This document shows, piece after piece, positions 3,137 through 52,324 of a DNA stretch of 64,000 bases. A program made the position numbers and the translations under genes. Origin of the DNA: Pseudofrankia inefficax (GTDB lineage Bacteria > Actinomycetota > Actinomycetes > Frankiales > Frankiaceae); assembly GCF_000166135.1 (NCBI RefSeq), contig NC_014666.1, positions 992,001 through 1,056,000 on the forward strand, given 5' to 3'. The first letter of the stretch is position 1; each line of letters starts with the position of its first letter. The notes under the pieces are model-generated. The model was given only the letters and a program-made list of their open reading frames with translations, was not told the DNA's origin and ran no database searches.

Positions 3137-3147
3137 TCGCGCCGGCC

Positions 3148-3174
3148 GGGAATCCACCGGCGGCCCAGACGGTT
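3148..3174 (+). promoter_or_regulatory. SigR-type autoregulatory promoter upstream of sigR
   Basis: GGGAAT at 3148-3153 is followed by exactly 18 nt and then GTT at 3172-3174. This matches the SigR/SigH-family consensus GGGAAT-N18-GTT completely. Transcription would start near 3180, about 30 nt before a TTG start that has a GGAGG site, which parallels the sigRp2 promoter of Streptomyces. Confidence 0.75.
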
Positions 3175-3210
3175 GGCGAGTGTGCAAGCAGAGGTCACGG
3201 AGGTCCGACA

Positions 3211-12569: not shown

Positions 12570-13161
12570 GTGTTTGGGGCTTGCGGGGCCGGGTATCCCT
12601 CCGCACGTGGAGTCTGTCGTCGATGAGCGCGCATCGAGCGCTCACGTTGCGTCAGGCTCTTCGCCGTTCCGAGTGACTGTGGGTGCCCCGCCGGTTCGGC
12701 GCCGCGCCGGGCTGGCGGCGTCAGTTTTGCCGGCCGACCCGACCTCGGAAAACGCATCGGCCGCTCCATCCGTGGCGCGCCGCGCGAAGACGGCGGCCGT
12801 GCGGACAGAACGGCCGAGAGTGCCGGCGTCCGAGACGCACCGAGTGGATGCGCAGCGTGACATGGGCACGGATGCAACTACCGCTGTGCCGCACACTTCC
12901 TCGGCCAGCGCTTCTTGCTGCTCTTTGTGGCCGGGCTTGGGAAAGCTCGGCGTTGTCGGATACCGGCCCATGGGCCCGTCGGCCGTGGATGTCTCGGCCG
13001 CCCGGGGAGGGGTGCGCCCTCGGGCCTCGTTCGTTGTCTCGTCGCTGGCAGGTGGCCAGCGGCTGATGGCCGATTCCTCAGACTTCCCGGACCGCCAACC
13101 TGCCCGACCGGCTACGCCGATCTGGCAGGAACCCTTCCGCCGATCCGGTGGGAACCCTGAC
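12570..13161. other. intergenic region between convergent pdtaS and whiB1
   Basis: About 590 nt with no gene. Long open frames cross it on both strands, but their composition is irregular and they show no domain. I saw no convincing terminator. Confidence 0.4.
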
Positions 13162-37141: not shown

Positions 37142-38809
37142 GTGGCACTGCAGCCAGGGAAGGGGAAGGTCGACGGCAAGCACTACCTGCCTTCGACCCC
37201 TGAGACGGTGCGGTGGGGGGAACTGCCCACCGCCCGCACCCGACCCGTCCTCACCGTCGACAGCGGGTCGACCGTCACCATCGACACGGTCAGCCAGGAG
37301 GGAATCCTGGAGGACCAGGGCCGTGACCCCGACGCGTTCTTCGGCCGGCACGGCGTCACGTCCTCCGAGGTGCTCGACGACGCGCGGGCCATCGCCGCGT
37401 CCGGCATCCCGCACCGCTTCGGGGTCGACGGCCCGCACGTCGTGACCGGTCCGGTGTACGTGCGCGGCGCCGAGCCGGGCGACGTGCTGCGGGTCGAGAT
37501 CCTTTCGCTGCTGCCGCGGGCCCGGTACGGGATGATCTCCAATCGGCACGGGCAGGGCCTGCTCGCCGGCGAGTTCCCCGAGGGCCCGACGCCGGACCAG
37601 GACGCCGACGCGCGCCACTGGCAGGGGTTCCGCACCGTCGGCAGCTTCTGCGCGGTCGAGCGCCGCAGGGGCAAGCTGTTCGGCGTGCTCGACGCGGTGG
37701 CCGGCGGCGCCAGGGTCCGCTTCCCACTCAACCCGTTCATCGGGATCATGGCGGTCGCCGTCGATCTCGGCGGTGAGCCGGGCGGCGACGCCGGCGCCGA
37801 CCAGGAGGCCGGCACCGCGACGGTCCCGTCCACGTCGGTGGGGCTGCACGGCGGTGCCCTGGACTGCCGCGACCTCGGTATGGGCGCCCGCCTCTACCTG
37901 CCCGTGCAGGCGCCGGGCGCCCTGTTCGCGGTCGGCGACCCGCACTACGCGGCCGGTGACGGCAAGATCGGGCTGACCGCGCTGGAGGGCCCGCTGCGGG
38001 CCACCGTCCGGCTCTCCGCGCTGCGGGAGCCGGCGGCCAGGGCGGCGCTCGGGTCGCTGCGGGAGCCGTTCGTCGAGACGGAGGCGTCCTGGCTCACGCT
38101 GGGCCTGGACGTCGACGCCACCGAGGCCATCCGGCGGGCGGCCCGCTCGGCGGTGCTGTTCCTGTCCAGCCGGCTGAGCCTGGACCGGGCCTCGGCGCTG
38201 GCCTACCTGTCCGCAGCGGCGGACTTCGGGATCAGCCAGCTCGTCAACGGCGTGCAGACCGCCTACTGCCGGATCCGGCGATCGGACTTCACCGAACCGC
38301 CGCCGCCCCGGCCGCGGCTGCCGCGGGCCGCGCTGGGCCGGCTGGTCGGCACCGGCGACGACGTCGCCGGTTATGACGGCGCTGGTTACGACCTTCTTGA
38401 CGGTTCCGGCCCGGACGGCCTCGGGATCGAGGGTGACGCGGACGACGAGGTGCTCGACCGCGCGGCGCGCGCCCAGGACGACGGCGACGCCCCTCGGGAG
38501 GATGACCGGGTCGGCCTGCCGCGGGCGGCCGTCCGCCGGAAGAAGAGCAACGGTCCGGCCCCGCTCGCCGCCGGCGCCGACGAGCGGGGTGGCGGCGCGA
38601 GCGATCACCGAGGTGACGCCGGGCCGCGCGGCCAGGACGAGCCGGACGAGCCGGAGCGCCACACGGCCGGCCCGGACGGCGGGTCGGCCGCTCCCGCGCC
38701 ACGCGTCGCCGACGAGGTTCCCGGCTCGCTGCCTCGGCAGGTCACCTCAGGGGCGTCCCGCCGGCCACTGCGCCGCAGCGAGACGCCGACCCCGCCGGCG
38801 ACGGGCTGA
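37142..38809 (+). CDS. acetamidase/formamidase family protein with a disordered C-terminal tail
   Basis: The 555-aa protein has the FmdA/AmdA fold over about residues 15-400: KVDGKHYLPSTPETVRWGE at the N-terminus, VTGPVYVRGAEPGDVLRVEIL, GMGARLYLPVQAPGALFAVGDPHYAAGDG and the DFGISQLVNGVQTAYCRI segment. Relatives hydrolyse formamide or acetamide to ammonia and acid. The last 130 residues are acidic/basic, low in complexity and unusual for the family. The GTG at 37142 is the annotated start. It converges on the large helicase gene. Confidence 0.88.
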   Translation: MALQPGKGKVDGKHYLPSTPETVRWGELPTARTRPVLTVDSGSTVTIDTVSQEGILEDQGRDPDAFFGRHGVTSSEVLDDARAIAASGIPHRFGVDGPHVVTGPVYVRGAEPGDVLRVEILSLLPRARYGMISNRHGQGLLAGEFPEGPTPDQDADARHWQGFRTVGSFCAVERRRGKLFGVLDAVAGGARVRFPLNPFIGIMAVAVDLGGEPGGDAGADQEAGTATVPSTSVGLHGGALDCRDLGMGARLYLPVQAPGALFAVGDPHYAAGDGKIGLTALEGPLRATVRLSALREPAARAALGSLREPFVETEASWLTLGLDVDATEAIRRAARSAVLFLSSRLSLDRASALAYLSAAADFGISQLVNGVQTAYCRIRRSDFTEPPPPRPRLPRAALGRLVGTGDDVAGYDGAGYDLLDGSGPDGLGIEGDADDEVLDRAARAQDDGDAPREDDRVGLPRAAVRRKKSNGPAPLAAGADERGGGASDHRGDAGPRGQDEPDEPERHTAGPDGGSAAPAPRVADEVPGSLPRQVTSGASRRPLRRSETPTPPATG

Positions 38810-38875: not shown

Positions 38876-41800
38876 CTAGCCGAGGTCGTCGTCGAGCCCG
38901 TCCTGGTCGGACAGCGCCATGGGCCGCCAACCGGCCGTGGGCGCCGTGGCGACCGGGCCGGAGCCGACGGCCGGCGCGCCGTCCTCCCGCGATGGCGCGG
39001 AGCCGTCCACCGGAGTGATGCCCGCGGCGGCGAGGCGGGGCCACAGGCTGGCCAGGGCCGCGACCGGGTCCGACTCGAAGTCGGACTGGCGGACCCGCCA
39101 GAACGGCCAGCCGGCCCGGCGCAGCTGGCGCTCCCTGGCGAAGTCGTGCGCGACCTGGGCCGTGGTCTCGACCGCGTCCCCGTCGCACTCGACCGCCAGG
39201 CGGGCCCGGCCACCGGCGACCACCAGGTCGATCCGCCGGCCGTTCACCTCCACCTGCGGGGTCACCTGGTAGCCGGCGCTCGTGAGCTCGCGGAACACCC
39301 GCTGCTCGAACAGCGAGTCGAACCGAGGGTGCGGGATGTCCGGGGCGACCTCGTCGAGGCGCGGTGGCTCCTCGACCGCCCGCTCGTCGGCCTGGCTGTG
39401 CGCCAGCACGAAGGACAGGTAGCTGTGCCGCAGGTCGCCGGGGTCGAGGTCCTCGAGCCCGGCGGAGTGGAAGAGCCAGACCTGGTCGCGAGCGCGCGAG
39501 GCGGCGACGTTGAACCGCCGCTGGTACTCCTGGCGGGTCAGCGCGATGGCCGGCGCGCCCGGCGCGACGACCATCGACAGGAACACAACGTCCCGCTCGT
39601 CGCCCTGGAAATCCGGCGGGGTGCCGACCCGTAGCCTGCGGCGCAGCTGTTCGGCGGCCGGCAGCCGCGCCCCCAACAGCGCGCGGATCAGCTCGGCCTG
39701 GCCGGTGCCCTGCAGGACCACGACACCGAACGAGGCGCCGTCATAGCGCGGGTCGGCCGCGCACTCCAGCACCTGCGCGACCAGCGCCTCGGCCTCGGCC
39801 GGGTTGCGCAGCCCGGCGCCCTCGCCCGTCGTGTAGCCGTGCGGGACGTGCCGGGCCCGCAGCGGAGGCAGCCGGTCGGCGCCGAACTGGCGCAGCGGCA
39901 CCAGCGGCGCGTCCCGGTAGAACATGGCCGACGACCACTCGATGATCTCCGGCATGCAGCGGAAGTGCTCGCGCAGCCGGATGACCTCGCCGAACCGGGT
40001 TCGCAGCAGGCTGAACAGGCTGGAGCGCGGGGTGAACGAGACCCGCAGCCAGGCGGGCAGGTCCGGCAGCAGCGCGTCCAGCCGGCGGAAGATCGGGTCC
40101 AGCTCGTCGGCGTCGTCGGACGCCCAGCCGGCCGGCGGGCCGGCGTGGTCGAGACCGCCACCGCCGGCCTCCGCGACGAGGGCCCCGCGGCCGAGGGTGA
40201 CCGGCGGCGTGCACTGCCGGTCGTCGCCGACGATGATCACCCGGGGTGCGAGCCACAGCAGGAACAGGCTGTCCAGGCCGGCCTGGCTGCCCTCGTCGAC
40301 GATCACGACGTCGAAGCTGTCGCGGACGGCGGGGATCGTGGACAGCACCGCGCCGATCGGCATGACCCACGCGGGAACGGCCGTCTGGGCGATCGCCATC
40401 GCCTCCCGGGCAGCCTGCCGGTAGCGCTCCGCGTGCCGCCCGGACCGGCCACCGGCCCCGACGGCGTCGGCGTAGGCACGCAGCGCGGCCGACTCGCGGG
40501 TACCCATGCGTTCCAGGCAGTGCTGCCAGGCCTTGGCCCCGGCGAGCTGGGCCGTCGCCGCGGCCACCGCGTCCTCGGCGGCGTCGAGCTGGGCGTCGAG
40601 GTCGGGCAGGTCACGGGCCCTGCCCGTCCCGGCCGCGTCCGCGTCGGCGAGCCAGCCGGCGGCCAGGCCCCACGACCAGGCCGCCTCGAAACGGGCGAGC
40701 CGGCGCGGCCACGTGGCGTCGCCCGCGGGCGGCGGGGAGTCGGGCTGGGCCGCCGCGGCGACCAGCAGCTCGGCGAGGGCCGGGTGCGCGGCCGTCAGTC
40801 GACCGAGCAGGTCCACCCGTCGGGCGGTGGCCCGGCGGGCCGCGGCCGCGTCCAGCAGCCGGCGGCGCGCGACGCGGTAGCCGGCCAGGTCCCGGGCCGC
40901 GAGGGTGGCCGCGACCTGGCGCAGCTCGGCCGGGAAGGCCGGCCGCCCGGCGGCGGCCAGCACCTCGGAGCGCAGCCGGTCGATCTCCCCCTGAGCCTGC
41001 GTGGCGGCGAGTCGCAGCCGGGCCAGGGCGACGGCGTCGACCAGGTCGTGCAGCGTGTCGGTCGAGCTCAGGTCGACAAGCCCGGCGCCGACGGAAGGCG
41101 CGGCGGGATCGGCCTGGCTCGGGCGCGCGGCCTTCTCGGCCTCCAGCGACGCGAGCAGGGTGCGGATCTGGTCGCGAGCCGTGACGACCGTGACGATCGC
41201 GCCGAGCGCGTCGTGGGCCTCGGTGAGCCGAGCGAGCCGGGCCTCGGGCGCGGCGGCGTCCCCGGCCGGCCCGTCGAGCGGGGCCCGGGGCTCGAAGCCG
41301 ACCATGACGCCGGCGAGCGCCCAGGCCCTGGCCACGGCGTCGATAGCGACCTCGGCCCGCAGCCTGGCGAGCACCAGGTCAAGCAGCTCAGCGGTGGTCG
41401 GCGCGAGCCCGTCGACCGTCGTCCCGTCGAGCAGGTCGGCGGCGTCCTTCTGCGCCCGGGACCGGAACATCCGGCGCAGGTTGCCGCCGTCGTCCAGATG
41501 CCCGCGCAGGGCCTCGCCGACGGCGAGCAGCCGCGCGGCGGGCGTGGCGGTGGGGTCGGCGGGCACCACTCCGGCGGCCGCGGCGGCGGTCACGTCGGCG
41601 GGCAGGCTGACGGCGCGCAGCCCGAGCGTCGCGAGCGCCTCGGTCGCCTCGTCGAGCGCGGAGGCGGCCGACGTGACCTTCGCCCAGACGGCGGCGTCGC
41701 GGCCGATGAGGGCGTCGTCCAGCGCTCGTGGCAGCCAGGGCGCGTGCCGCGCGGTGCGGCGCGCCCCCTCCAGCGCGCGGGTGACGGTGCCCACCGCGGC

Positions 41801-44020
41801 CGTGAGCCGGTCCAGGCCGGTCGCGTCAAGGACGCCCAGCGCGGCGGCGGCCGCGCGGACGGCCGATCCCGTCGCGGAGCGGGTGGCCGCTCCCGCCTCC
41901 GCCGCCGTGTCCCGCTCGCGTTCCAGCAGCCGTTCGAGGGCCTCGACGCTGGGCAGGGACACCGGGCCGAGGTCGGGATCGCCGGGCTCGACGCTGGTCA
42001 GGCCGTCGTCGGGCCAAGCGTCGCCGGGCCAAGCGTCGCCGGGCCAAGCGTCGTCGGGCCGGTCGTCGCCGCCGTACTGGTCGGCGTCGTCCGGACCGCC
42101 GGCGCTCAGGGGCCGCCGGCTCGCGGCGCCGGGCCCGTTGGCGGCCCGCAGCAGCGCCCACAGCTCGGTGGCCTCGGCCGCGCTCAACGGGGGCGCGGGT
42201 GGGGCGCCGGTCGGGGACTGGGCGGTGCCCGCGCCCCGGTCGCCCGCCATGGCCTCGTCAGGGCCGTCGTCCTTGAGCAGCGGTGCGTCCGTCAGGGGAA
42301 CCGGGCGCGGCAGCCAGCCGTGCTCGGCCCGCTCCCGCTGGACCCTGGCGGCGATCGCGCCGCGGGTGCCGGACCAGCCGGGGGCGACCTCGCTCGCCGG
42401 ATGGCCGATCGCCTCGGCGGCTCGCTGGAGCTGGATGGCCGCGGCCAGCTCGTCCCGGCGGGCCACGGCGGCGTCCCTGCGCTTGCGGGCGGCGTCGATG
42501 CGGCGGGCCTGGCCGCCGGGGTCGTAGGCCGCCTTCTCGGCGGCCAGGGCGCTGACGCTGACCGTGAGCTCGTCGGTGCCTAGCCCCTCGGTGTCGGTGA
42601 TCGACACGCACAGGCGCCGCAGCGACTCGGGCAGCTTGTCGCGCAGCACCCGCAGCGCCTGTGCCTTCTGGCTGGTCACCAGGACGCGCTGGCCCTCGGC
42701 GAGCAGGGCCGAGACCAGGTTGGCGATCGTGTGGGTCTTGCCGGTGCCCGGCGGCCCCTCGACGACCACGCCGCTGTCGTGGCGCAGCCGGGCCACCACA
42801 TGCGCCTGCTCGGGGTTCGCCGGCAGCGGGAACAGCGGATCGTCGGACAGCTGGCTGGGGCTCGCGGCGCCCTCGGCGGCCAGCCACGCCAGCCGCTCGT
42901 CGGCCTCCAGCGTCTCCACCAGCTGGACGAGGCCCAGCGGCGGGCGGCCGTCCCCGCGCAGCGCGTCGAGCATCTGCTCGTAGTAGGTGAGCAGCGCGGC
43001 CTGGCCGCGGGCGCGCAGCACGATCGCCGGGGCGAGGTCGATCCGCGGCCGGTCGGTCGGCGGCCCGGACGGCTGCCAGGACGAGTGGTAGCCGTCGTGG
43101 CCGACGTCGAGCGCGACCGTCAGCCAGTCCCGCAGCAGCCGTTCGTCGTCCCCGCCCAACGGGGCCGCCGGCCGGGCCCGCAGCCGCTCGTGCAGCGCGT
43201 TGGTGCGCTCCTCGTGGAAGACGGCGAGGCCGTCGAGCAGCGGGCCGTCCTCCAGCCGGGTCGCGACCCCGTCCGGGACGCGCAGCCGGATCGCCGAGCT
43301 CACCGGGTCGATCTCGACGGCCAGCCGGGTGGTCAGCAGGTGGCGCCGCAGCGTCCGGCCGTCCGGGGCGCGCCAGGACAGCAGGCCGGTGGCGAGCACC
43401 AGCTCCAGCCCGTCGCCCTCCTGGGCGAGCCGGCCGGCGACGCTGTGCAGCGTGCCGTGCAGGGTGCGCCTGTCGGCGTCGGCCCGGGCTCGGCCGGCCC
43501 AGATCTGCCAGGTCGGCAGCCAGTCCTGGTAGGCCTCCGGCACCTCCGGGCGGTCGACCAGGCGGACCGGCTCGGCGAACCCGTCGGTGACCGGCTGGCC
43601 GCCGGGGCGCAGCGGGATGCCGTCCGGCCAGACCCCGTCCGGCCAGCCGCCCGGGTCCCCGCCGGACCAGCGCAGCTGGTCGGGGGCTCGCGCGCTCGTC
43701 TCGCGCAGCGGCGGCGAGTCGGACGGGAGGTCACCCGGCTCGGGCAGCACCACCCAGCCGGCGAGCGCGTCCGGCAGCGGCGGCGGCGAGGGCAGCACGG
43801 CCGCGGCCGGCGCCTCCAGCACGACCTCGCCGGCCGTCGCGTGCTCGAACAGCGACAGGCCGCCGGGCAGCTCGGCGAGCCACAGGGCCAGCGGGTTGTC
43901 CTCGACCCGCGTCACCTGGTCAGCCTGGGACTGCGCCACCTCGTGCAGGAACCGCACCATCCGGTGACACCGGTTGGTAAGCATCGCGAAGCGTTCCCGC
44001 TCAGCCGCCGCCGTCTCCAT
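38876..44020 (-). CDS. large SF1 helicase with C-terminal restriction-endonuclease-like domain
   Basis: The 1714-aa protein has Walker A GPPGTGKTH (about 423-431), a very long Ala-rich helical insertion (about 520-1220), then helicase motifs: VIVDEGSQ (Walker B), GDDRQ, EHFRCMPEIIEW, FQGDERDVVFLSM and NVAASRARDQVW, typical of Upf1-like SF1 enzymes. The C-terminus (about 1564-1665) is a restriction-endonuclease-like fold (EQRVFRELTSAGYQV, RRIDLVV, LAVECDGD, then FWRVRQSDF) of the Vsr/MTES_1575 kind, with putative catalytic Glu1572, Asp1598 and Glu1611. Such fusions include antiviral candidates. ATG 44020 has GGAGG 5 nt upstream. It is divergent from an EndoQ-UvrD fusion. Confidence 0.85.
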   Translation of the reverse strand: METAAAERERFAMLTNRCHRMVRFLHEVAQSQADQVTRVEDNPLALWLAELPGGLSLFEHATAGEVVLEAPAAAVLPSPPPLPDALAGWVVLPEPGDLPSDSPPLRETSARAPDQLRWSGGDPGGWPDGVWPDGIPLRPGGQPVTDGFAEPVRLVDRPEVPEAYQDWLPTWQIWAGRARADADRRTLHGTLHSVAGRLAQEGDGLELVLATGLLSWRAPDGRTLRRHLLTTRLAVEIDPVSSAIRLRVPDGVATRLEDGPLLDGLAVFHEERTNALHERLRARPAAPLGGDDERLLRDWLTVALDVGHDGYHSSWQPSGPPTDRPRIDLAPAIVLRARGQAALLTYYEQMLDALRGDGRPPLGLVQLVETLEADERLAWLAAEGAASPSQLSDDPLFPLPANPEQAHVVARLRHDSGVVVEGPPGTGKTHTIANLVSALLAEGQRVLVTSQKAQALRVLRDKLPESLRRLCVSITDTEGLGTDELTVSVSALAAEKAAYDPGGQARRIDAARKRRDAAVARRDELAAAIQLQRAAEAIGHPASEVAPGWSGTRGAIAARVQRERAEHGWLPRPVPLTDAPLLKDDGPDEAMAGDRGAGTAQSPTGAPPAPPLSAAEATELWALLRAANGPGAASRRPLSAGGPDDADQYGGDDRPDDAWPGDAWPGDAWPDDGLTSVEPGDPDLGPVSLPSVEALERLLERERDTAAEAGAATRSATGSAVRAAAAALGVLDATGLDRLTAAVGTVTRALEGARRTARHAPWLPRALDDALIGRDAAVWAKVTSAASALDEATEALATLGLRAVSLPADVTAAAAAGVVPADPTATPAARLLAVGEALRGHLDDGGNLRRMFRSRAQKDAADLLDGTTVDGLAPTTAELLDLVLARLRAEVAIDAVARAWALAGVMVGFEPRAPLDGPAGDAAAPEARLARLTEAHDALGAIVTVVTARDQIRTLLASLEAEKAARPSQADPAAPSVGAGLVDLSSTDTLHDLVDAVALARLRLAATQAQGEIDRLRSEVLAAAGRPAFPAELRQVAATLAARDLAGYRVARRRLLDAAAARRATARRVDLLGRLTAAHPALAELLVAAAAQPDSPPPAGDATWPRRLARFEAAWSWGLAAGWLADADAAGTGRARDLPDLDAQLDAAEDAVAAATAQLAGAKAWQHCLERMGTRESAALRAYADAVGAGGRSGRHAERYRQAAREAMAIAQTAVPAWVMPIGAVLSTIPAVRDSFDVVIVDEGSQAGLDSLFLLWLAPRVIIVGDDRQCTPPVTLGRGALVAEAGGGGLDHAGPPAGWASDDADELDPIFRRLDALLPDLPAWLRVSFTPRSSLFSLLRTRFGEVIRLREHFRCMPEIIEWSSAMFYRDAPLVPLRQFGADRLPPLRARHVPHGYTTGEGAGLRNPAEAEALVAQVLECAADPRYDGASFGVVVLQGTGQAELIRALLGARLPAAEQLRRRLRVGTPPDFQGDERDVVFLSMVVAPGAPAIALTRQEYQRRFNVAASRARDQVWLFHSAGLEDLDPGDLRHSYLSFVLAHSQADERAVEEPPRLDEVAPDIPHPRFDSLFEQRVFRELTSAGYQVTPQVEVNGRRIDLVVAGGRARLAVECDGDAVETTAQVAHDFARERQLRRAGWPFWRVRQSDFESDPVAALASLWPRLAAAGITPVDGSAPSREDGAPAVGSGPVATAPTAGWRPMALSDQDGLDDDLG
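42011..42060 (-). repeat. 15-nt in-frame minirepeat in the helicase gene
   Basis: Three near-identical 15-nt units (GGGCCAAGCGTCGCC on the plus strand) start at 42011, 42026 and 42041 and encode repeated DAWPG pentapeptides in a disordered part of the helicase insertion. Confidence 0.75.
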
Positions 44021-44282
44021 CCACCCCTCCCGCCTGGATCCCCGAATCATCCTCTACGTCGCCGTCGTCCTCGCCGGCCACCGGGTCGGGCGGCCGTCCG
44101 GCGTGCCACCGGTGGGACGGCTTGGGTCGGTCTTGGCCGGCGCGGGCGGGCCGGCCGGCTGGCGTCGTCCTCGGGTGGCCCGGGCCGGGGGCGGGACCGT
44201 CGGCTGATCGAGGTCACGGGAGAATGGGGCCGCCCGGGTGGCGATGGCGCCGCGCGTGGGCGGGTGACCCCGGTCGGGCGGC
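44021..44282. other. shared upstream region of the two helicase genes
   Basis: The 262 nt between the divergent genes must hold both promoters. It is very GC-rich; I could not assign -10 or -35 boxes with confidence. Confidence 0.35.
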
Positions 44283-47200
44283 GTGGTGGGAGGCGTGGCG
44301 GGCGTGGCGGATGACGGCGGCGAGCTGGACGGGATGCCCGCCGAGAGCGGCCCGGCGGGCGCTTCGTCGGCGCCGTTCTACGTCGACCTGCACGTGCACT
44401 CGAAGTACTCGCGGGCGTGCAGCCGCGACTGCGACCTGGAGCATCTGGCCTGGTGGGCGGCCCGCAAGGGGATCCGGGTCGTCGGAACAGGGGACTTCAC
44501 CCACCCGGCGTGGGCCCAGGAGCTCGAGGACAAGCTGGTGGCGGCCGAGCCTGGGCTGTTCCGGCTGAGGCCCGACCTGGAGCAGGACGTGCTGCGGCGG
44601 CTGCCCGCGTCCTGCCGGACCGCGACCCGGTTCCTGCTGTCCACCGAGATCTCGACGATCTACAAGAAGGGCGACAGGACCCGGAAGGTCCACCATCTGC
44701 TCTACGCCCCGGACCGGGAGGCGGCCGGCCGGATCACCGCGGCCCTCGCCCGGATCGGCAACCTCGCCGCCGACGGCCGACCGATCCTCGGGCTCGACTC
44801 CCGGCACCTGCTCGAGATCACCCTCCAGTCCGACCCGGGCAGCTACCTCGTCCCCGCGCACGTCTGGACCCCGTGGTTCGCGGTCCTCGGCTCGAAGTCC
44901 GGGTTCGACGCCGTCGACGACTGCTACGACGACCTCGCGCACGAGGTCTTCGCCCTGGAGACCGGGCTGTCCGCCGACCCGGAGATGTTCTGGCGGATCT
45001 CCGGGCTCGACCGGTACCGGCTCGTGTCCAACTCGGACGCGCACTCGCCGCCCATGCTCGGCCGCGAGGCCACCGCGCTGTCCTGCGACCTGGACTATTT
45101 CGCGATCAAGGATGCGCTCCGGACCGGGGCCGGCTACACGGGGACCGTCGAGTTCTTCCCGGAGGAGGGGAAGTACCACCACGACGGCCACCGGGCCTGC
45201 GGCGTGCGCTTCACGCCCGAGGAGACCAAGGCGTCCGGCGGTGCCTGCCCGGCCTGTGGCAAGCCGCTGACCGTCGGCGTGCTGCACCGCGTCGACGCGC
45301 TCGCCGACCGGGAGACGCTCCACGTGCCGGCGACGGCCGGGCAGGTGCGCTCGTTCGTCGCGCTGCCGGAGATCGTCGGCGAGATCCTCGGGGTCGGGCC
45401 GAAGAGCAAGGCGGTGGCGACGCAGGTCGGCTCGCTCGTCGAACGGCTCGGCCCGGAGCTGGGCATCCTCGGCGACGTCGAGCTCGCCGCGATCGGTGAG
45501 GCAGGCTCGGCGGAGCTGGTCGAGGCGGTTGGCCGGCTGCGCCGTGGCGAGGTGCTGCGGGAGGCCGGCTTCGACGGCGAGTACGGCGTGATCCGGATGT
45601 TCGCCCCCGGCGAGCTCGGCGGCGAGGCGGCGACCCTGTTCGACCTGGCGCCGACCGTTCCGGCCGCGAAGCCCAGGCGAGCGGCCGTGCCAAGCCCGCG
45701 CCAGCCACCGAGTCCGGCCTCGGCTGAACGGGCCTCGTCTGAGCCGGCCTCGTCTGAGCCGGCCCTGGTCGAGCCAGCGGTGGCGGAGCCCGTCACGGTG
45801 AACCCCGCCGTGGCGGAGCCTGCCGGCGAGCCGGGGACGCTGGAGACGGCCGGGCTGGCCTCCGCCGGCGGGTCGGCGTCCGTCCTGGACGGCCTGGACG
45901 CCGACCAGCGCGCGGCGGCGGCCGTCACCGCTGGTCCGCTGGTGATCCTGGCCGGGCCCGGCACGGGCAAGACGCGGACGCTGGTACACGCGATCGCGCA
46001 CCGGGTGCGGGAACGGGGCGTCCCGGCCGGGGAGTGCCTCGCCGTCACGTTCACCCGGCGGGCGGCCGACGAGCTGGTGGAACGCCTCGACCAGCTGCTC
46101 GCCGCGCCGCGGGCCGGTGGCGGGGACGGCCGGCCGGACCAGCGCGTCACGGCCACGACGTTCCACGGCCTTGGCCTGCTGGTCATCCGCGAGCAGCACA
46201 TCCGGCTCGCCCGGGGCCCGCACGTCCAGGTCGCCGACGACGCGGTCCGGGCCGAGCTGCTGGCCGAGGCGCTCGGGGACGCCGCCGGCACGGTCGCCGC
46301 CCGGGCCGCGGCCGCGCGGCGGATCGGCGAGCTCAAGCGACGCCGTTCGCTGGGGGACCAGGTACGCGGCGACGAGCTGGCCGGCGTCCTCGCCCGCTAC
46401 GACGCCGCGCTGCGCGAGCGCGACCTGGTGGACCTCGACGACCTGTTGGCGCTGCCGCTCGCCCTGCTGACCGCCGAGCCGGAGCTGGCCGAGGGCTACC
46501 GGCGCCGGTTCCGGCACGTCTGGGTCGACGAGTACCAGGACGTCGACGAGACCCAGTACCGGCTGCTGCGGGCACTGTGCCCGCCGGACGGGAACCTGAC
46601 CGTGATCGGCGACCCGGACCAGGCGATCTACTCCTTCCGGGGCGCCGACGTCGGCTTCTTCCTGCGCTTCGAGCAGGACTTCCCGGCCGCCCGGAGTGCC
46701 GCGCTGACCCGCAACTACCGCTCGACCGGGACGATCGTCGCCGCGGCCCGGCGCGCTATCGCGCCGGCCAGCTTCGTCCCCGGCCGCGAGCTGGTCGCGG
46801 TCCACCCGGACGGCCCGGACGCGCCGCGGTCGCCGGCCGGGCAGCCGGCCCCGGCCGGGCCGGGCGGGGCGCCGGTGCTGGTACGGGCCTGCGCTAGCGA
46901 GGCGGAGGAGGCGCTCGCCGTCGTCGACACGATCGAGGCGGCCCTCGGTGGAACCTCCTTCCACGCGCTCGACAGCTTCGCACCCGCCCAGCTGGAGGCG
47001 GGCCGGCTCGCCGCCGGCGGCCACCTGTCGTTCGCCGACATCGCCGTGCTGTACCGGACCGCCCGGCAGGCCGAACCGGTCATGGCTGCGCTGGCCAGGC
47101 GCGGCTTCCCCTTCCAGCGGCGTTCGCACGGGCCGCTCGCCGACGCGCCTGGCGTCGCCGCGCTGCTCGCCGAGCTGCGGGCCGAGCGCCGGGACGGCGC

Positions 47201-47912
47201 GGCCCGCTCGGTGTCCGCCGCGCTGCGCGACGCGGCGGCCCGGGCCGCCGAGCGGGCCACCGCCCGCGGCACGGTGCTCGCCACGGTCCTGGGCGCGGGC
47301 CAGCCCGAGCGGCCTGGGCCGCCGCACGAGCAGACTGATCCGCCGGGCGCCTCGTCCGAGGCGGAGATCCGGCTGGGCGTCGAGCTGCTGGCGCCGGCCG
47401 CGGCCTCGGCGGGGGACGACCTGGCCGGGTTCCTCACGGCGGTCTCGCTGGCCACCGAGGCCGACACCCTCGACCCACGTGCCGACCGGATCTCGCTGCT
47501 CACCCTGCACGCCGCCAAGGGCCTGGAGTTCGGCCTGGTCCTCATCGTCGGCTGCGAGGACGGCCTGCTCCCGATGACCTGGGGCCGGCCGTCGCGCCTG
47601 GGCGACAGGGCCGAGCCCGGCCAGGCCGCGACGGCTGGACCGGACACGGCCGTCGACGGTCGGGCCGGCGCGGCGACCGATCCGGCCCGCGGCCCACTGG
47701 CCGAGGAACGGCGGCTGTTCTTCGTCGGAATCACCCGGGCCCGCGGCCGGCTCATCCTGAGCCATGTGACCGTCGGCGCCGGCGGCACCGTCAGGCGGGC
47801 CCCGTCGCCGTTCCTGGCCGACCTCGACCCGCGTCTGCTCGACCGCGTGACGGGCCGTCCCGGCCAGCTCCCGCGGCAACGGCCGGCCGGCAAACAACTC
47901 CGGCTGCTCTGA
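44283..47912 (+). CDS. Endonuclease Q-like PHP nuclease fused to a UvrD/PcrA-type helicase
   Basis: The first about 440 residues of this 1209-aa protein resemble Endonuclease Q, which nicks DNA 5' to deaminated bases or abasic sites: PHP motifs DLHVHSKYSRA (His37, His39), GTGDFTHPAW (Asp71, His74), SNSDAHS, a four-Cys zinc element (about 307-330, ending CPACGK) and the helix-hairpin-like EILGVGPKSKAV. After an Ala/Glu/Pro linker comes an SF1A helicase: LAGPGTGKTRT (about 556), VWVDEYQDVDETQ, GDPDQAIYSFRGAD, TLHAAKGLEF and FFVGITRAR. This would couple damage nicking to unwinding. The GTG start is approximate. Confidence 0.88.
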   Translation: MVGGVAGVADDGGELDGMPAESGPAGASSAPFYVDLHVHSKYSRACSRDCDLEHLAWWAARKGIRVVGTGDFTHPAWAQELEDKLVAAEPGLFRLRPDLEQDVLRRLPASCRTATRFLLSTEISTIYKKGDRTRKVHHLLYAPDREAAGRITAALARIGNLAADGRPILGLDSRHLLEITLQSDPGSYLVPAHVWTPWFAVLGSKSGFDAVDDCYDDLAHEVFALETGLSADPEMFWRISGLDRYRLVSNSDAHSPPMLGREATALSCDLDYFAIKDALRTGAGYTGTVEFFPEEGKYHHDGHRACGVRFTPEETKASGGACPACGKPLTVGVLHRVDALADRETLHVPATAGQVRSFVALPEIVGEILGVGPKSKAVATQVGSLVERLGPELGILGDVELAAIGEAGSAELVEAVGRLRRGEVLREAGFDGEYGVIRMFAPGELGGEAATLFDLAPTVPAAKPRRAAVPSPRQPPSPASAERASSEPASSEPALVEPAVAEPVTVNPAVAEPAGEPGTLETAGLASAGGSASVLDGLDADQRAAAAVTAGPLVILAGPGTGKTRTLVHAIAHRVRERGVPAGECLAVTFTRRAADELVERLDQLLAAPRAGGGDGRPDQRVTATTFHGLGLLVIREQHIRLARGPHVQVADDAVRAELLAEALGDAAGTVAARAAAARRIGELKRRRSLGDQVRGDELAGVLARYDAALRERDLVDLDDLLALPLALLTAEPELAEGYRRRFRHVWVDEYQDVDETQYRLLRALCPPDGNLTVIGDPDQAIYSFRGADVGFFLRFEQDFPAARSAALTRNYRSTGTIVAAARRAIAPASFVPGRELVAVHPDGPDAPRSPAGQPAPAGPGGAPVLVRACASEAEEALAVVDTIEAALGGTSFHALDSFAPAQLEAGRLAAGGHLSFADIAVLYRTARQAEPVMAALARRGFPFQRRSHGPLADAPGVAALLAELRAERRDGAARSVSAALRDAAARAAERATARGTVLATVLGAGQPERPGPPHEQTDPPGASSEAEIRLGVELLAPAAASAGDDLAGFLTAVSLATEADTLDPRADRISLLTLHAAKGLEFGLVLIVGCEDGLLPMTWGRPSRLGDRAEPGQAATAGPDTAVDGRAGAATDPARGPLAEERRLFFVGITRARGRLILSHVTVGAGGTVRRAPSPFLADLDPRLLDRVTGRPGQLPRQRPAGKQLRLL

Positions 47913-48220
47913 CCTCGGCGAACGGGCCGGCGCAGGAAACTCACGTTACGGGTGGGTTGGCTCAACCCGTCCCCCACGAGGGCCGGGGCCGGCCTCCCCG
48001 ACCGGGCCCGCGCGAGTCGCGCGAGGTATGAAGGTTGGCGACACCAGGGCGCATCCCCCCAAAGAGCCCGCGAACCGCCCGGAAGGGCGAACGAGATCTA
48101 CGGAGTGCTGCGATCCTGAACCGACCGACCGGACCGTCGAGCGCCGCACCGTCGCGGGCCGGGCAGGACGCCCGCCCCGCCGGCGACGTCATGGTCGAAC
48201 GGGTCCCAAGAGACGTACCG
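47913..48220. other. intergenic region upstream of the AftD-like gene
   Basis: About 300 nt. A 15-nt palindrome CGCGCGA-G-TCGCGCG (48009-48023) is followed by TATGAA. In-frame codons upstream of ATG 48221 are open but Pro/Arg-rich and probably untranslated. Confidence 0.35.
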
Positions 48221-51200
48221 ATGACTGAGCCCGCGATCGCGCCGGCCGACGGCGTCGAGGGCGAACCGCCGGCCGACCGGACGCCGCGGTGGCCGCTCGG
48301 GGCCATCGCTGCCGGCCTGGTCACGCTGTTCATGCTCCAGGCGCCCGGTCGCCTGGTCGCCGATACCAAGATGAACGTGCCGCTCGACCCGCTGCGGTTC
48401 ATGGAGTGGGCGACCCACCTGTGGAACTCGTCGGCCGACTTCGGTTTCCTGCCGAACCAGTACATCGGCTACCTGTTCCCGATGGGCCCGTTCTTCCTGC
48501 TCGGGAAGGTCCTGGGCGTTCCCGCCTGGATCACCCAGCGGCTGTGGATGGCGCTGATCCTCACGGTCGCGGCCTGGGGCCTGGTCCGGCTCGCCGACGC
48601 GTTGCGGATCGGGCGGCCGTGGACCAGGGTCCTCGCGGGTGTCGCGTACGCCCTCTCGCCCGTGTTCATCGGGAAGGTCGGCGCCTCGTCGGTCGCGCTG
48701 ACCGGTGCGGCGATGCTGCCCTGGATCACGCTGCCGCTCGTGCTCGCGCTGCGCCCGGACGGCGCCGGCGGCATCGACACCGGCACCGCGGCCGGAACCG
48801 GTCCGGACGCCGAGGCCGCCGTGGCGCGCCGGCTGTCACCGCGCCGGGCCGCGGCGCTGTCGGGCCTGGCGATCGTCTGCACCGGCGGGGTCAACGCCAG
48901 CGTCACGCTGTGCGTCCTGGTCTGCCCCGCGGTCCTGCTGGTGTTCGCCGGCGGGTCGCGACGCGCCTGGGCGCTGCGCGGGTGGTGGGTGCTCGCCGTC
49001 TTCCTGGCGACCGCGTGGTGGCTGCTCGCCCTGATGACGCAGAGCCGTTACGGGCTGAACTTCCTGCCGTACACCGAGACCGCCGCGACCACGACGTCGC
49101 CGACGTCGGTCGCGGAGGCGCTGCGCGGCACCACGGACTGGCTGGCCTACCTGCGGGTGCCGGCGCCGTGGCTGCCGGCCGCCTCGGTGGACGTGACGAA
49201 CCCGGTCGCCGTGGTCGGCTCCGCCGTGGCCACCGCCATCGGGCTGTGGGGGCTCGCGCGCCGGGACCTGCCCGCGCGGCGCTTCCTCGTCGTCAGCCTC
49301 GCCGCCGGCATCGTCGCCGTGTCGGCCGCCTACCCGGGCCAGCCGGGCAGCCCACTGGCCGACGGCGTCCGCCACCTGCTCTCCGGGCAACTGGCCTTCC
49401 TGCGCAACGTCTACAAGTTCGAGGCGGTCTCCCACGTTCCGCTGGCGCTGGGGATCGCGCACGCCCTGCACGTCGTGTGCGCGCCGCGCGGGCGGGCGAG
49501 GGCCGACGCCGTGCGCGAGGTCCCAGCCTGGCGCCGCCGCCTCGCCGCGGCCGGCGGCCGGCTGCGCCCGGCCGGGCTCGACGCCGCGCTGCCGCGGCTG
49601 CGCCCGCGTTCGGCCATCGCCGGGGTGCTGGTGCTCGCGGCCGTGGGGACAGGCGTCATGCCGGCCTTCGACGGCCAGATGTTCCAGGCCGGCACGTTCA
49701 AGGAGGTGCCCGGCTACTGGCACCAGGCGGCGGACTGGCTCGCGAGCAACCCGTCCGGCGGTACCACGCTGGTCCTGCCCGCCAAGCCGTTTGGGGAGTA
49801 CGACTGGGGGCGCCCACTCGACGAGCCGATGGCCTTCCTGGCCAGCACCCCCTGGGCGGCCCGTTCGCTGATCCCGCTGGGGAACGCCGGGATGACCCGG
49901 TGGCTGGACGGCATCGAGCAGGAACTGGCCCTCGGGTCGGCCTCGGGGCTCGCCGACGCGCTCGCCCGCGAGGGCGTCGGCCAGGTCCTGATCCGCAACG
50001 ACATCTCCGACGAGGACTGGGACAACCCGCCGTCGACGAGTGAGATCTACCGTGCGCTTGCCAACTCGGGCCTGCGCCGTGCCGCGACGTTCGGGCCGAT
50101 GAAGACGGCCAGGCCGAGCGCCCGGGACCGACTGATCGCGGGGAAGGCGAAGCCCACCCAGAAGGTCCCCGCACTGGACGTCTGGGTTGTGCCGAACGGC
50201 GCCACCCAGGTCACCGCCTACCCGGCCGCCACCGCCATGGTCGTGTCCGGCGGTTCCGAGGCCACGGTGCAGATGGCCGCGCACGGGGTGCTCGGCACCG
50301 ACCGCGCCGTGGTGCTCGCCAACGATCTCTCGGGCCTGCCCGGCGCCCCGGATGACACCACCGCGCCGTCGGGAGGCCTGGTCCCGCCCGTGCCGGCCAG
50401 CGACATCATCGGGCCCACAACGGCGTTGGTCACCACGGACACCTACACCCGCCGTGAGACCGACTACGGCGTGATCCACAACGCGAGCTCCTACCTGCTC
50501 GGCCCGGACGAGAACGCCGCGGGCGAGACCGGGCCGCCGCACCAGTGGCTGGACGAGCCGGCCGACGGTCACCAGACCGTCGCCGCCTACGAGAACGGGG
50601 TCCAGGTCCGGGCCTCCTCCTACGGGTCGAAGCTGGTCGCCAGACCAGACGTCTCACCCGCGCAGGCCGTCGACGGGCTGCCCTTCACCTCCTGGTCCGT
50701 CGTCGCCGACCCGTCGAAGGGCTCCGTCGGCGGCTGGATCGAGGTGGACGTCCCCAAGGCGACCTCGGTGCCGTACATCGACGTGCAGCTGCTGGAGGAG
50801 GGGTCCTGGCGTCCGGCGGTCCAGGCCCTGCGGGTGACGACGAGCACGGGTTCGGTCGTCACCCCCGTGCGCCCGGACGAGACGACCCAGCGCCTGGCCG
50901 TCCCCGCCGGGGCGAGCACGTCGTTCCGGGTCACGTTCGAGAAGGTCACCCAGAAGCCGGGCTCGACCTACGGCGCCGGCATCCGCGAGCTCAGCCTCCC
51001 CGGCGTGCAGATCCAGCGCTACGTCCAGACCCCGTCGGACGCCGCCGGCCTGTTCACCGCCGGCGTCGGGCAGGTCGCGTACGCGTTCGACCGCGAGGCG
51101 GTGGACGTCACCGAGCCGTTCGGCGGCTCGGAGGAGCTCAGCCTGCACCGCCGGTTCGACGTGCCGCGGCCGATGAGCTTCGCCGTCCTGGGCACCATGA

Positions 51201-52324
51201 CGGGCGTTCCGTCCCTGACGGTCCAGTCGGCCGTCCCCGCTCCGGCGTTCCAGCTGCCGTGCGGGAAGGGCCCGGCGATGATCGTCGACGGGACCCGCTA
51301 CGAGCTGCGGGTCGAGGGCCAGCAGTCCGACATCGCCGCCGCGAAACCGCTGGGGATCGGGGTCTGCACCCCGGACGGGACGATCCCGCTGTCGGCGGGC
51401 CAGCACGACCTTCAGCTCGACGAGGCGGGCACCGGCCTGCTGATGTCGTCGTTGACCCTCGTCGGCGCGGGTGGCCAGATCAGCGCGGACACGGCGCGCA
51501 CCACGAAGGTCACCAGCTGGGGGTCCGAGCGCCGGACGGTCCAGATCGGGTCCGGCACGAGGGCGCTGCTGGCGGTCCACGAGAACGCCAACGCGTCGTG
51601 GACCGCGACGCTCAACGGGCAGAAGCTGACCCCGCTGCGGCTGGACGGCTGGCAGCAGGGGTGGATCGTGCCGGCCGGGTCCGGCGGCACCATCGTGATC
51701 GAGAACCTGCCCGGCTACTCCTACCGGACCAGGCTGCTCGTCGGTGGACTCCTGGCACTGCTCCTGCTCGCGCTGGTGCTCATACCCGCCCGCTGGCGGC
51801 TGCGGCGCTCGGTGGATCCCGACGGCTACCCGCGCTTCCTGAACCCGTGGGCGATGCCCGTGGTCGGGCGCCTGGCGCGGGTGCCCGGCTGGATCGCCGG
51901 TGGCCTGCTCGGGACGCTCGCCGTGTTCCTCGTCGCCGGCCCGGTCGCGCTCGCCGTCCCGGTCCTGGTGCTGGTCGGGCGGCGTTACCCGTGGGTGCTG
52001 GGAACGACCGGCCTGCTGTTCATGATCGCCTCGGGAGTGGGCGTCGCGGTGCGGTCGGACGCCGTTCCCACCTCGCACGCGGGCGCGTTCGGCCCGTTCG
52101 TCCAGACCTGCGGCGCGATCGCCCTGGCGGCCGTCGTGGCCGCTCTGGCGCTGCGCGGCGGTGCCCCACCCGGCGAGCCGGCGAACCCGGCTCCGCCGAG
52201 CGAGCCGGCGGATCCGATCCCGACGCAGGTGGCCGCGTCGCCGGAGGGCCCGCCGCCGGCCGCTCCCGTGGTCACCGACACGGCGGACGCGAGTGACACG
52301 CAGTGGATTCGGCGGCGAACGTGA
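48221..52324 (+). CDS. AftD-like alpha-(1->3)-arabinofuranosyltransferase family membrane protein
   Basis: The 1367-aa protein has about ten membrane helices in its first 450 residues, with the acidic loop LVADTKMNVPLDPLRFMEWATHLW after helix 1 as in GT-C glycosyltransferases, then a large extracytoplasmic part (about 470-1190) including a carbohydrate-binding-like segment (PDVSPAQAVDGLPFTSW), and a final group of helices. Length and layout match mycobacterial AftD, which adds arabinofuranose to cell-wall glycans; the sugar and acceptor here are unknown. ATG 48221 is chosen; ATG 48191 is in frame. The next gene is coupled. Confidence 0.85.
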   Translation: MTEPAIAPADGVEGEPPADRTPRWPLGAIAAGLVTLFMLQAPGRLVADTKMNVPLDPLRFMEWATHLWNSSADFGFLPNQYIGYLFPMGPFFLLGKVLGVPAWITQRLWMALILTVAAWGLVRLADALRIGRPWTRVLAGVAYALSPVFIGKVGASSVALTGAAMLPWITLPLVLALRPDGAGGIDTGTAAGTGPDAEAAVARRLSPRRAAALSGLAIVCTGGVNASVTLCVLVCPAVLLVFAGGSRRAWALRGWWVLAVFLATAWWLLALMTQSRYGLNFLPYTETAATTTSPTSVAEALRGTTDWLAYLRVPAPWLPAASVDVTNPVAVVGSAVATAIGLWGLARRDLPARRFLVVSLAAGIVAVSAAYPGQPGSPLADGVRHLLSGQLAFLRNVYKFEAVSHVPLALGIAHALHVVCAPRGRARADAVREVPAWRRRLAAAGGRLRPAGLDAALPRLRPRSAIAGVLVLAAVGTGVMPAFDGQMFQAGTFKEVPGYWHQAADWLASNPSGGTTLVLPAKPFGEYDWGRPLDEPMAFLASTPWAARSLIPLGNAGMTRWLDGIEQELALGSASGLADALAREGVGQVLIRNDISDEDWDNPPSTSEIYRALANSGLRRAATFGPMKTARPSARDRLIAGKAKPTQKVPALDVWVVPNGATQVTAYPAATAMVVSGGSEATVQMAAHGVLGTDRAVVLANDLSGLPGAPDDTTAPSGGLVPPVPASDIIGPTTALVTTDTYTRRETDYGVIHNASSYLLGPDENAAGETGPPHQWLDEPADGHQTVAAYENGVQVRASSYGSKLVARPDVSPAQAVDGLPFTSWSVVADPSKGSVGGWIEVDVPKATSVPYIDVQLLEEGSWRPAVQALRVTTSTGSVVTPVRPDETTQRLAVPAGASTSFRVTFEKVTQKPGSTYGAGIRELSLPGVQIQRYVQTPSDAAGLFTAGVGQVAYAFDREAVDVTEPFGGSEELSLHRRFDVPRPMSFAVLGTMTGVPSLTVQSAVPAPAFQLPCGKGPAMIVDGTRYELRVEGQQSDIAAAKPLGIGVCTPDGTIPLSAGQHDLQLDEAGTGLLMSSLTLVGAGGQISADTARTTKVTSWGSERRTVQIGSGTRALLAVHENANASWTATLNGQKLTPLRLDGWQQGWIVPAGSGGTIVIENLPGYSYRTRLLVGGLLALLLLALVLIPARWRLRRSVDPDGYPRFLNPWAMPVVGRLARVPGWIAGGLLGTLAVFLVAGPVALAVPVLVLVGRRYPWVLGTTGLLFMIASGVGVAVRSDAVPTSHAGAFGPFVQTCGAIALAAVVAALALRGGAPPGEPANPAPPSEPADPIPTQVAASPEGPPPAAPVVTDTADASDTQWIRRRT

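Follow-up and report, generated by a model that had tools for sequence, protein, structure and literature searches.

The locus at positions 44,283 to 47,912 of the window, the stretch of 64,000 nucleotides of Pseudofrankia inefficax (contig NC_014666.1) that was analysed, raises the question of what would be accomplished by a single polypeptide that joins a nuclease of the endonuclease Q (EndoQ) type to a UvrD-type helicase. The accessible portions of published accounts present EndoQ as mainly archaeal and the step that follows nicking as proposed, not demonstrated; a helicase step after cuts by EndoQ and EndoV was proposed in 2015 (PMC4357722, in the part available). No description of an EndoQ-helicase fusion was found in the open-licence literature. 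The reading favoured here, to which we assign a probability of roughly 0.6, is that the protein is a bacterial alternative-excision-repair enzyme in which a single chain nicks at the lesion, unwinds the strand and docks on the clamp, and the joining of EndoQ to a UvrD-type motor suggests what the step after nicking is likely to be.

The fusion gene (44,283..47,912, + strand) begins with GTG and encodes 1,209 amino acids; an ATG at 44,334 is a possible alternative start, and conservation sets in near residue 32. Its G+C content by codon position (0.79/0.55/0.94) is as expected of a real gene in high-G+C DNA, the overall values being 76.0% for the gene and 73.8% for the window, and not the 72% given in the original prediction. 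That prediction had proposed an EndoQ-type nuclease and a UvrD-type helicase on one chain, and this architecture is confirmed by sequence and fold matches; the residues of the catalytic site and of the lesion pocket are intact. The positions it gave for His37/His39, for the zinc element and for the P-loop (GPGTGKT, residues 558-564) are correct, and the metal ligands, whose possible absence had been raised, are present. The fusion is not a product of chance, because relatives with an equal layout occur across many phyla, and a sequencing or assembly chimera is ruled out by the identical layout in many independent genomes.

The EndoQ half (residues 32-440; 44,376..45,602, + strand), which comprises a PHP nuclease, a zinc element and a C-terminal helical part, was delimited with phmmer and an AF2 model. 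Its phmmer match in the PDB is PfuEndoQ (5zb8; E 3.4e-37, residues 35-439), and the model superimposes on that structure with a Z of 45.1 and an rmsd of 2.2 Å over 379 of 398 residues, so that structure comparison and phmmer both recover the full-length EndoQ fold of PHP, zinc and C-terminal domains. The helix-hairpin-like segment at residues 361-383 (45,363..45,431, +), a label that rests on no domain model, is placed by the PfuEndoQ alignment and by helices in the model. PHP motif I, DLHVHS (44,385..44,402, +), contains His37 and His39, the equivalents of Pfu H8 and H10, and PHP motif IV, Asp252-Ala-His254 (45,036..45,044, +), supplies those of D193 and H195; between them lie Glu122 (44,646..44,648, +; Pfu E76), His137 (44,691..44,693, +; Pfu H84), His193 (44,859..44,861, +; Pfu H139) and the pocket residues of Gly228-Leu-Ser230 (44,964..44,972, +; Pfu G169 and S171). 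The available part of the PfuEndoQ work reports that the E76A, H84A and H139A mutants are inactive, that E76 is a Zn ligand, that H139 also forms part of the lesion pocket, and that G169 and S171 exclude T and A and so select U/Hx (PMC8307549). The equivalents of these catalytic (E76, H84, H139), PHP-ligand (H8, H10, D193, H195) and pocket (G169, S171) residues occur without exception in the fused proteins aligned (98 of 98), a count taken over every usable fused protein in order to avoid the motif-chosen alignment A1 (the window protein plus 47 of 80 loci, all full-length, mostly chosen by PHP, P-loop and DExQ regular expressions, and with some near-copies omitted). The EndoQ half probably nicks DNA beside deaminated bases. 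Its substrate range could have shifted, because only 120 of 371 aligned residues are identical to PfuEndoQ and the score against NCBIfam TIGR00375, a hypothetical equivalog, is 124.2 bits, under the curated cut-off of 326.6, which just 1 of the 249 genomes sampled passes.

The zinc element (45,189..45,257, +), located by alignment to Pfu C249/C252/C268/C271, consists of His303-Cys306-Cys322-Cys325, and not of four cysteines. Since His-Cys3 sites are able to bind zinc, the element is treated here as a zinc-site variant. The first ligand is His303 in all 98 fused proteins and in 14 of 14 proteins of the same clade without a helicase in frame, and Cys in 27 of 27 proteins of the other bacterial EndoQ clade, while the remaining three cysteines are invariant in the fused, same-clade and other-clade proteins. 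A four-cysteine zinc site has been named as a possible signature of the EndoQ family (PMC4357722, in the part available); measured strictly against that signature, the clade of the fused proteins has His in place of the first Cys and would be worded "an EndoQ-like clade with a changed zinc site".

The helicase half (residues 530-1194; 45,870..47,864, +) is of the SF1 UvrD/PcrA type by Pfam and by fold. It matches PF00580 (E 4.1e-60) and PF13361 (E 3e-25), contains motifs I-VI of the SF1A class, and in the model aligns with DrUvrD 4c2t over 552 residues (Z 40.9, rmsd 4.1). The GPG-GKT of motif I (the P-loop, 45,954..45,974, +) and the D, E, Q and D of motif II, VDEYQD (residues 748-753; 46,524..46,541, +), are invariant in the 48 rows of A1, although the invariance of the PHP, P-loop and DExQ motifs in that alignment is partly a matter of choice, because its rows were selected by regular expression. 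The half does not score as an orthologue of PcrA, UvrD or Rep, since TIGR01073 gives 276.7 against a cut-off of 911.2 and the other NCBIfam equivalogs also fall below theirs. The spacing of motifs IV and V has a median of 263 in 47 fused rows versus 272 in 21 PcrA-type rows, and the idea of a shortened 2B region was dropped because this spacing is PcrA-like; the tail past motif VI has a median of 56 residues in 69 whole fused ORFs versus 127 in 13 PcrA-type rows. The half therefore shares with UvrD, PcrA and Rep the SF1 motifs, the UvrD fold and the near-PcrA spacing, but differs from them in being carried on EndoQ, in its short tail and in usually ending with a clamp-type motif. It is probably able to unwind the damaged strand, and the 3'->5' direction is a property of the UvrD/PcrA/Rep class.

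Between the two halves lies a disordered linker (residues 447-529; 45,621..45,869, +), with pLDDT below 50 over model residues 416-498. The protein ends in a pentamer of the beta-clamp-binding type, QLRLL (residues 1205-1209; 47,895..47,909, +), whose Q is invariant in A1, and EAATLF (45,624..45,641, +) is a degenerate internal motif of the same type, which reads QxxLF in many relatives and has no Gln here. C-termini of the QLxL[FL] or QLxL[IVM] type occur in 67 of 85 closed fused ORFs, and looser variants add 12 (79 in total), against 0 of 22 PcrA-type helicases, these 22 rows being drawn from 21 of 24 genomes and including at least four (L181, L182, L183, L187) that are cut or are other UvrD-like helicases; a null set of 1,620 ORFs, which includes spurious reading frames and is a rough yardstick, gave 2. 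The pattern Q..[LIMF][FL] occurs in the first 22 linker residues of 49 of 99 fused ORFs, a set to which the window protein does not belong, compared to a mean of 0.97 and a maximum of 6 in 500 rounds of shuffling, and both sets of motif counts overstate the number of events, as the fused rows are non-independent and many are from Frankia. The tail that carries the C-terminal motif has pLDDT below 50 and is flexible in the model, and a QLxLF-type motif in a flexible tail is the sequence arrangement of a clamp client. The final residue in Frankia-type fused proteins is L, V, I or M and not F, which by the consensus for such motifs makes for a weaker clamp ligand. A probable conclusion is that the fused protein ends in an attachment point for the DNA sliding clamp (DnaN). 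According to the available part of one report, the Tko and Pfu EndoQ enzymes have a C-terminal PIP box that binds PCNA, which stimulates them, and beta-clamp motifs had already been noted in bacterial EndoQ (PMC4858679); the fused tail has a DnaN-type motif where archaeal EndoQ has its PCNA tether. Bacterial EndoQ is not always tethered to the clamp in this way, since a clamp-type motif is found in the last 22 residues of 0 of 28 clade-B standalone EndoQ ORFs, all of one phylum (that of genome G333). The clamp motifs, like the breadth of the family and its likely single origin, had no place in the original prediction.

What the computation shows is the domain identities, the residue conservation, both motifs, support for a single origin and the co-occurrence with uracil-DNA glycosylases; the substrate, the nick position, the helicase activity and direction, the clamp binding and the order of the steps are inferred. 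The EndoQ half would flip out a nucleotide that is deaminated or abasic (uracil, hypoxanthine, xanthine or an AP site) and cut the strand at the phosphodiester bond on its 5' side, so that a 3'-OH remains. The nick would then serve as the loading site for the SF1A helicase half, whose 3'->5' movement along the undamaged strand would carry it beyond the lesion and away from the 3'-OH. In doing so it would displace the lesion-bearing strand as a 5' flap, with a polymerase extending the 3'-OH at the same time, and a flap nuclease and ligase would complete the repair. The C-terminal QLxLF-type tail, on its flexible stretch, would tie the enzyme to the DnaN clamp, a role comparable to that of the C-terminal PIP box by which archaeal EndoQ is held on PCNA, and the second motif found at the EndoQ-linker junction in many relatives could bind the second protomer of the dimeric clamp. 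The excision had been predicted to be "self-contained", which is overstated: the clamp motif points to an enzyme docked on the clamp, and a polymerase, flap nuclease and ligase would still be needed.

The components of this scheme have known counterparts. The fused protein has in common with characterized EndoQ enzymes (PfuEndoQ 5zb8 and 7k30, TkoEndoQ, and those of Methanosarcina and Bacillus) the whole fold, the PHP ligands, the catalytic and pocket residues, the zinc element and a clamp-type motif near the C-terminus, but it adds a helicase, its first zinc ligand is His clade-wide, and the clamp motif at its C-terminus, which follows the helicase, is of the DnaN type found in bacteria. UvrABC-UvrD and MutSLH-UvrD excision likewise proceed from a nick to removal of the damaged strand by a UvrD-type helicase, but in the fused protein a single chain would recognise the damage, make the incision and supply the helicase. 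Another parallel is the EndoQ/EndoV alternative excision repair put forward for Pyrococcus (PMC4357722, in the part available), in which a nick 5' of the lesion is likewise followed by helicase stripping of the damaged stretch; here, by contrast, the helicase is built in, and EndoV, which a two-cut model would require, is not supported as an obligate partner: EndoV matches are present in only 14 of 46 genomes and absent from 32, this genome among them.

The presence of uracil-DNA glycosylases (UDG) bears both on the role of the enzyme and on its substrate. The original prediction had asked about UDG redundancy, and redundancy is what is found: UDG-superfamily matches number four in this genome and occur in 42 of 45 related genomes (46 loci less L058), a set that includes two with EndoQ lacking a helicase in frame (G335, G337) and one with a split form (G310). 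Replacement of UDG by the fusion is thereby ruled out, and a non-redundant role is not evident because UDG matches are nearly always present; the best reading is that the fused enzyme adds to the uracil glycosylases. These glycosylases would generate AP sites, and the available parts of published work report AP sites and some oxidised pyrimidines among the substrates of PfuEndoQ (PMC8307549, PMC11354406). One alternative is that the same mechanism is directed mainly at AP sites, at oxidised pyrimidines or at some other small lesion, the protein then acting chiefly as a reserve AP endonuclease that can displace the strand by itself. The clade-wide change of one Zn ligand from Cys to His could be taken in the same sense, but the residues reported to select U/Hx over T/A are invariant, and this alternative is considered unlikely. 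The proposed fit of the enzyme to a high-G+C genome finds no support, nor does adaptation to high G+C in general, since the DNA of 101 fused loci (not whole genomes) ranges from 37 to 78% G+C and is below 50% in 19 of them. SOS control of the fusion gene is similarly unsupported by a simple pattern scan: GAAC-N4-GTTC-type and CTGT-N8-ACAG patterns within 400 bases upstream of the PHP motif were found for 1 of 99 fused ORFs (L002), and the same patterns have no match upstream of the window gene.

A second alternative, anti-phage or foreign-DNA defence, supposes that the EndoQ half nicks uracil-containing or modified phage DNA, which the helicase half would then break up, in loose analogy to Gabija (GajA-GajB), where a nuclease is also paired with a UvrD-like helicase. 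GajA is a TOPRIM/ATPase nuclease, so that Gabija differs in its nuclease family as well as in being two proteins, and the mobile defence context is not seen for the fusion. PADLOC GajB models match the fused protein (best E 9e-63), but the GajB matches listed are confined to the helicase half, and GajA is not among the best 25 of 51 PADLOC families for the fused protein (E 0.01) or among the matches of six neighbouring ORFs (E 1e-10). The divergent neighbour at 38,876-44,050, an SF1 helicase with an MTES_1575 nuclease domain, matches the candidate defence model PDC-S37, but no conserved operon or neighbour was detected in the flanks (up to 5 kb) of loci L001-L080 (blastp E 1e-12), where the widest neighbour groups reach 3 phyla and 3-6 loci. 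Defence is also consistent with a patchy spread (matches in 9 of 296 Actinomycetota genomes) and with the statement, in the available part of a review, that bacterial EndoQ may act in antiviral defence; against it, 29 of 35 genomes in the family to which this bacterium belongs have retained the gene, and the clamp motifs fit replication-coupled repair. Viral or plasmid carriage finds no support, because the EndoQ half has no match in phage or plasmid collections while the helicase half, as a control, matches 652 plasmid records at E 1e-5 (best about 3e-22 among the matches listed); the whole fused protein gave nothing against plasmids at E 1e-20, but the conclusion rests on the EndoQ-half search, and a pattern-seeded scan of IMG/VR produced 26 pattern matches, none of which was confirmed. 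Defence is accordingly judged quite improbable.

Alternative excision repair by the fused enzyme may be widespread. The layout is present in records from at least nine phyla, and in 63 of 80 loci one ORF with PHP, P-loop and DExQ motifs (by regular expression) spans the match, several of the other 17 being cut by contig ends or one letter off the PHP expression. This spread, together with the retention in the family, suggests that a repair route may have escaped notice in many bacteria, and judged by its sequence the fusion has the look of a DNA-repair machine that is compact, widely distributed and largely overlooked. In a tree of the EndoQ halves (119 of 143 rows, 24 near-duplicate or cut rows having been dropped, and the short ORFs L063, L079 and L149 and repeated loci left out beforehand), the fused proteins all fall in one starred clade, far from Pfu and 27 other standalone rows. 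The tree needs 11 changes between the fused and standalone states, read as losses, and some of the standalone rows (L139, L080, L077), which end abruptly, are possible frameshifts. The helicase halves form one clade apart from the 22 PcrA-type helicases (SH-aLRT 94, not starred, with few outgroups). In both trees a single fusion, with later losses of the helicase, is the favoured history, and a single origin of the fusion is likely. The weakest alternative, that the fusion is a mere expression convenience, with the helicase serving as an accessory motor in replication or recombination and the EndoQ half as a passenger that is seldom used, draws on the 12 clade-A rows without a helicase in frame, where EndoQ apparently works alone, but is very improbable in view of the invariant active-site residues in both halves and the 77 of 91 clade-A rows that are fused, even though the fused query used to find the rows favours fused ones. 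The two halves co-vary (r 0.86 over 67 proteins, compared to 0.13 for the best of 500 shuffles), as is expected of any two co-inherited genes, which makes the correlation silent on mechanism.

The excision-repair reading has a more ambitious form, which is tentative and for which we would give rather less than even odds: a widespread one-polypeptide excision pathway independent of glycosylases and UvrABC, in which two clamp motifs would grip both DnaN protomers and so hold nicking, unwinding and resynthesis in one complex. The inner motif would have been inherited from the EndoQ C-terminus, the other lying at the helicase C-terminus; in the window protein, where the inner motif is degenerate, one grip would be left.

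The gene at 44283-47912 (+) is an open reading frame of 1,209 residues with a GTG start, and its codon-position G+C (0.79/0.55/0.94) fits that of a real gene. The anatomy proposed in the original prediction, an Endonuclease Q (EndoQ)-like half joined to a UvrD helicase half, is borne out by sequence, domain and fold matches: the Pyrococcus enzyme (PfuEndoQ, 5zb8) matches residues 35-439 in a sequence search (E 3.4e-37), with 120 of 371 aligned residues identical; PF00580 (4.1e-60) and PF13361 (3e-25) match the second half; and an AlphaFold2 model built from 48 fused proteins (mean pLDDT 81.1, pTM 0.59) matches PfuEndoQ (Z 45.1, rmsd 2.2, 379 residues aligned), its dU-bound complex 7k30 (Z 43.5) and Deinococcus UvrD 4c2t (Z 40.9, rmsd 4.1, 552 residues aligned). 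The pLDDT is below 50 in the stretch between the halves (447-529) and in the final 16 residues.

As described in PMC8307549, E76, H84 and H139 of PfuEndoQ hold the catalytic zinc, their alanine mutants being inactive, while G169 and S171 act together with H139 to exclude T and A from the pocket. Pairwise alignment maps these five residues to Glu122, His137, His193, Gly228 and Ser230 of the window protein, which, like His37, His39, Asp71, Asp252 and His254, are identical in 98/98 fused proteins and in all 48 rows of an alignment of fused proteins partly picked by PHP, P-loop and DExQ patterns. Key residues are invariant in that alignment throughout helicase motifs I to VI, and its consensus also keeps, family-wide, a GGTSFHSxDSG-type stretch in the helicase half near window residues 889-897. 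The zinc site of the window protein is His303-Cys306-Cys322-Cys325; its histidine is found in 98/98 fused proteins and in 14/14 proteins of the same EndoQ clade without an in-frame helicase, and all 27 standalone members of the other bacterial clade have Cys there, so that the histidine marks the clade and not the fusion.

The window protein ends in QLRLL. Among the 85 fused ORFs whose C-terminus is closed, a clamp-type pentamer, Q[LM]x[LIF][FL], lies within the last 12 residues in 52, the same pentamer with a final I, V or M in 15, and a looser tail, Qxx(L/G)(F/L) or PxLF, in 12; the patterns used detect no tail motif in the other six, which include one with QLSLL farther inward (L025), one of masked sequence (L038) and one with QLALQF (L124). 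The tail motif occurs in 2 of the 1,620 further closed ORFs in these loci (at least 200 aa, many of them probably spurious frames) and in 0/22 PcrA-type helicases. When the last 22 residues are considered, a clamp-type motif is present in 4/15 ORFs of the fused-containing clade without an in-frame helicase (one gene being counted twice, as L086 and L154, and two split cases included) and in 0/28 standalone ORFs of the other clade, all from the phylum of genome G333; the tail is therefore above all a trait of the fused proteins. It does occur without a helicase, since two members of the fused clade that lack one, L068:4995-6314 and L086:1435-2931, end in QMNLF and QLSLL. Shiraishi and colleagues (PMC4858679) describe a C-terminal PIP box through which Thermococcus EndoQ binds PCNA (KD 55 nM), with stimulation of nicking, and beta-clamp motifs near the C-terminus of bacterial EndoQ homologues. 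A second clamp-type motif, Q..[LIMF][FL], lies within 22 residues directly after the EndoQ half in 49/99 fused ORFs, where 500 shuffles give 0.97 on average and never more than 6, and [LIM]F alone occurs in this stretch in 82/99 (shuffled mean 5.3); the window protein has EAATLF here, which lacks the Gln and keeps the hydrophobic part.

SF1A helicases of the UvrD/PcrA-type class move 3'->5'. The EndoQ half would nick 5' of the lesion, and a 3'->5' motor loaded on the intact strand at the nick would run toward and then past the lesion, so that the damaged strand comes off as a 5' flap and a clamp-bound polymerase has access to the 3'-OH; travel from the nick past the lesion is the geometry that EndoQ requires after cutting. 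A helicase removal step has already been drawn for Pyrococcus, with EndoV as second cutter (PMC4357722). EndoV matches occur in 14 of 46 genomes, among which the window's genome has none, and because EndoV is mostly absent the second cut would more likely be made by a flap nuclease. A repair role for the fusion, with a putative substrate for the nuclease half, a predicted motor activity of the helicase half and predicted binding to the clamp, is a reasonable reading, and is strengthened by the clamp motifs and by the conservation of active sites in each half. The redundancy with uracil glycosylase (UDG) that had been raised is present: the 8,815,781-base contig has four UDG-superfamily matches beside a single EndoQ match and eight PF00580 matches (the fusion gene among them), and 42/45 related genomes have a UDG match, so the proposed EndoQ-UvrD route would be an addition to UDG. 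The suggestion that the fusion is apt for a high-G+C genome is not supported. Standalone EndoQ, its clamp motif and the helicase step are each separately in print; no description of the fusion, its breadth or the paired clamp motifs was found in the open-licence papers searched.

In a 119-row EndoQ tree, all 77 fused rows fall with 12 standalone and two split rows in one clade (SH-aLRT 99), separate from PfuEndoQ and 27 other standalone rows. The tree requires 11 changes between fused and alone, most simply explained by one fusion after which the helicase was lost repeatedly; one standalone row, L086, branches outside every fused row (support 82). In the helicase tree the fused halves group as a single clade of 54 rows with SH-aLRT 94 (not starred), and the 22 PcrA-type helicases, drawn from 21 of 24 genomes searched, fall outside it. 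Distances of the two halves correlate across 67 proteins (r 0.86, shuffle maximum 0.13), as expected if the halves travelled together. Locus L127 carries a fused gene (652-4299, +) and a same-clade standalone EndoQ (11353-12687, -) about 7 kb apart on one contig; they are sister rows (SH-aLRT 96), perhaps through duplication and then helicase loss. At L143:3497-6820 (-) and L026:4857-8117 (+) a single stop in the linker separates EndoQ and helicase frames, which may reflect a two-gene split, decay or sequencing error.

The distribution was sampled as TIGR00375 matches, with frame length as a proxy for fusion and helicase content read directly in fetched loci only. Matches occur in 9/296 Actinomycetota genomes (five in frames of at least 1,088 aa, one at a contig end, one of 499 aa and two weak PHP hits), in 29/35 of the window's family (28 in frames of at least 1,156 aa), in 125/249 of the phylum of G333, Bacillota by the record title of L061 (at least 27 in frames of at least 982 aa), in 103/148 of the phylum of G319, probably Desulfobacterota from the tree neighbours of L036 (41 in frames of at least 875 aa), in 8/118 of the phylum of G323, Bacteroidota judging by L046 (all eight in frames of at least 1,004 aa), and in 3/121 of the phylum of G315, Chloroflexota judging by L032 (one frame of 1,071 aa). 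Fused tree rows are labelled Actinomycetota, Bacillota, Thermodesulfobacteriota, Myxococcota, Pseudomonadota, Chloroflexota, Planctomycetota, Bacteroidota, Balneolota, Verrucomicrobiota, Acidobacteriota and two candidate phyla; among these rows are many metagenome bins, in which contigs may be misbinned. The nearest named relatives are Frankia and Pseudofrankia.

No conserved neighbour of fusion genes was found in the flanks examined (at most 5 kb, loci L001-L080). Phage and plasmid collections yield no match to the EndoQ half, while the helicase half, as a control, matches 652 plasmids. An ARAGORN candidate tRNA-Ile (anticodon TAT) at 38335-38422 (+) is probably a false positive, since it overlaps long ORFs and the whole window contains no hit that attains an Rfam gathering score. 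Divergent from the fusion gene, 38876-44050 (-) encodes a 1,724-aa SF1 helicase-nuclease with AAA_11/AAA_12 and a C-terminal MTES_1575 restriction-endonuclease-like domain; it matches the PADLOC candidate PDC-S37 (E 1.8e-50; Hhe and Mko models weaker) and is possibly a defence gene adjoining a repair gene. Directly downstream of the fusion gene, 48035-52324 (+) encodes an AftD-like alpha-(1->3)-arabinofuranosyltransferase (PF11847, E 3.2e-209).
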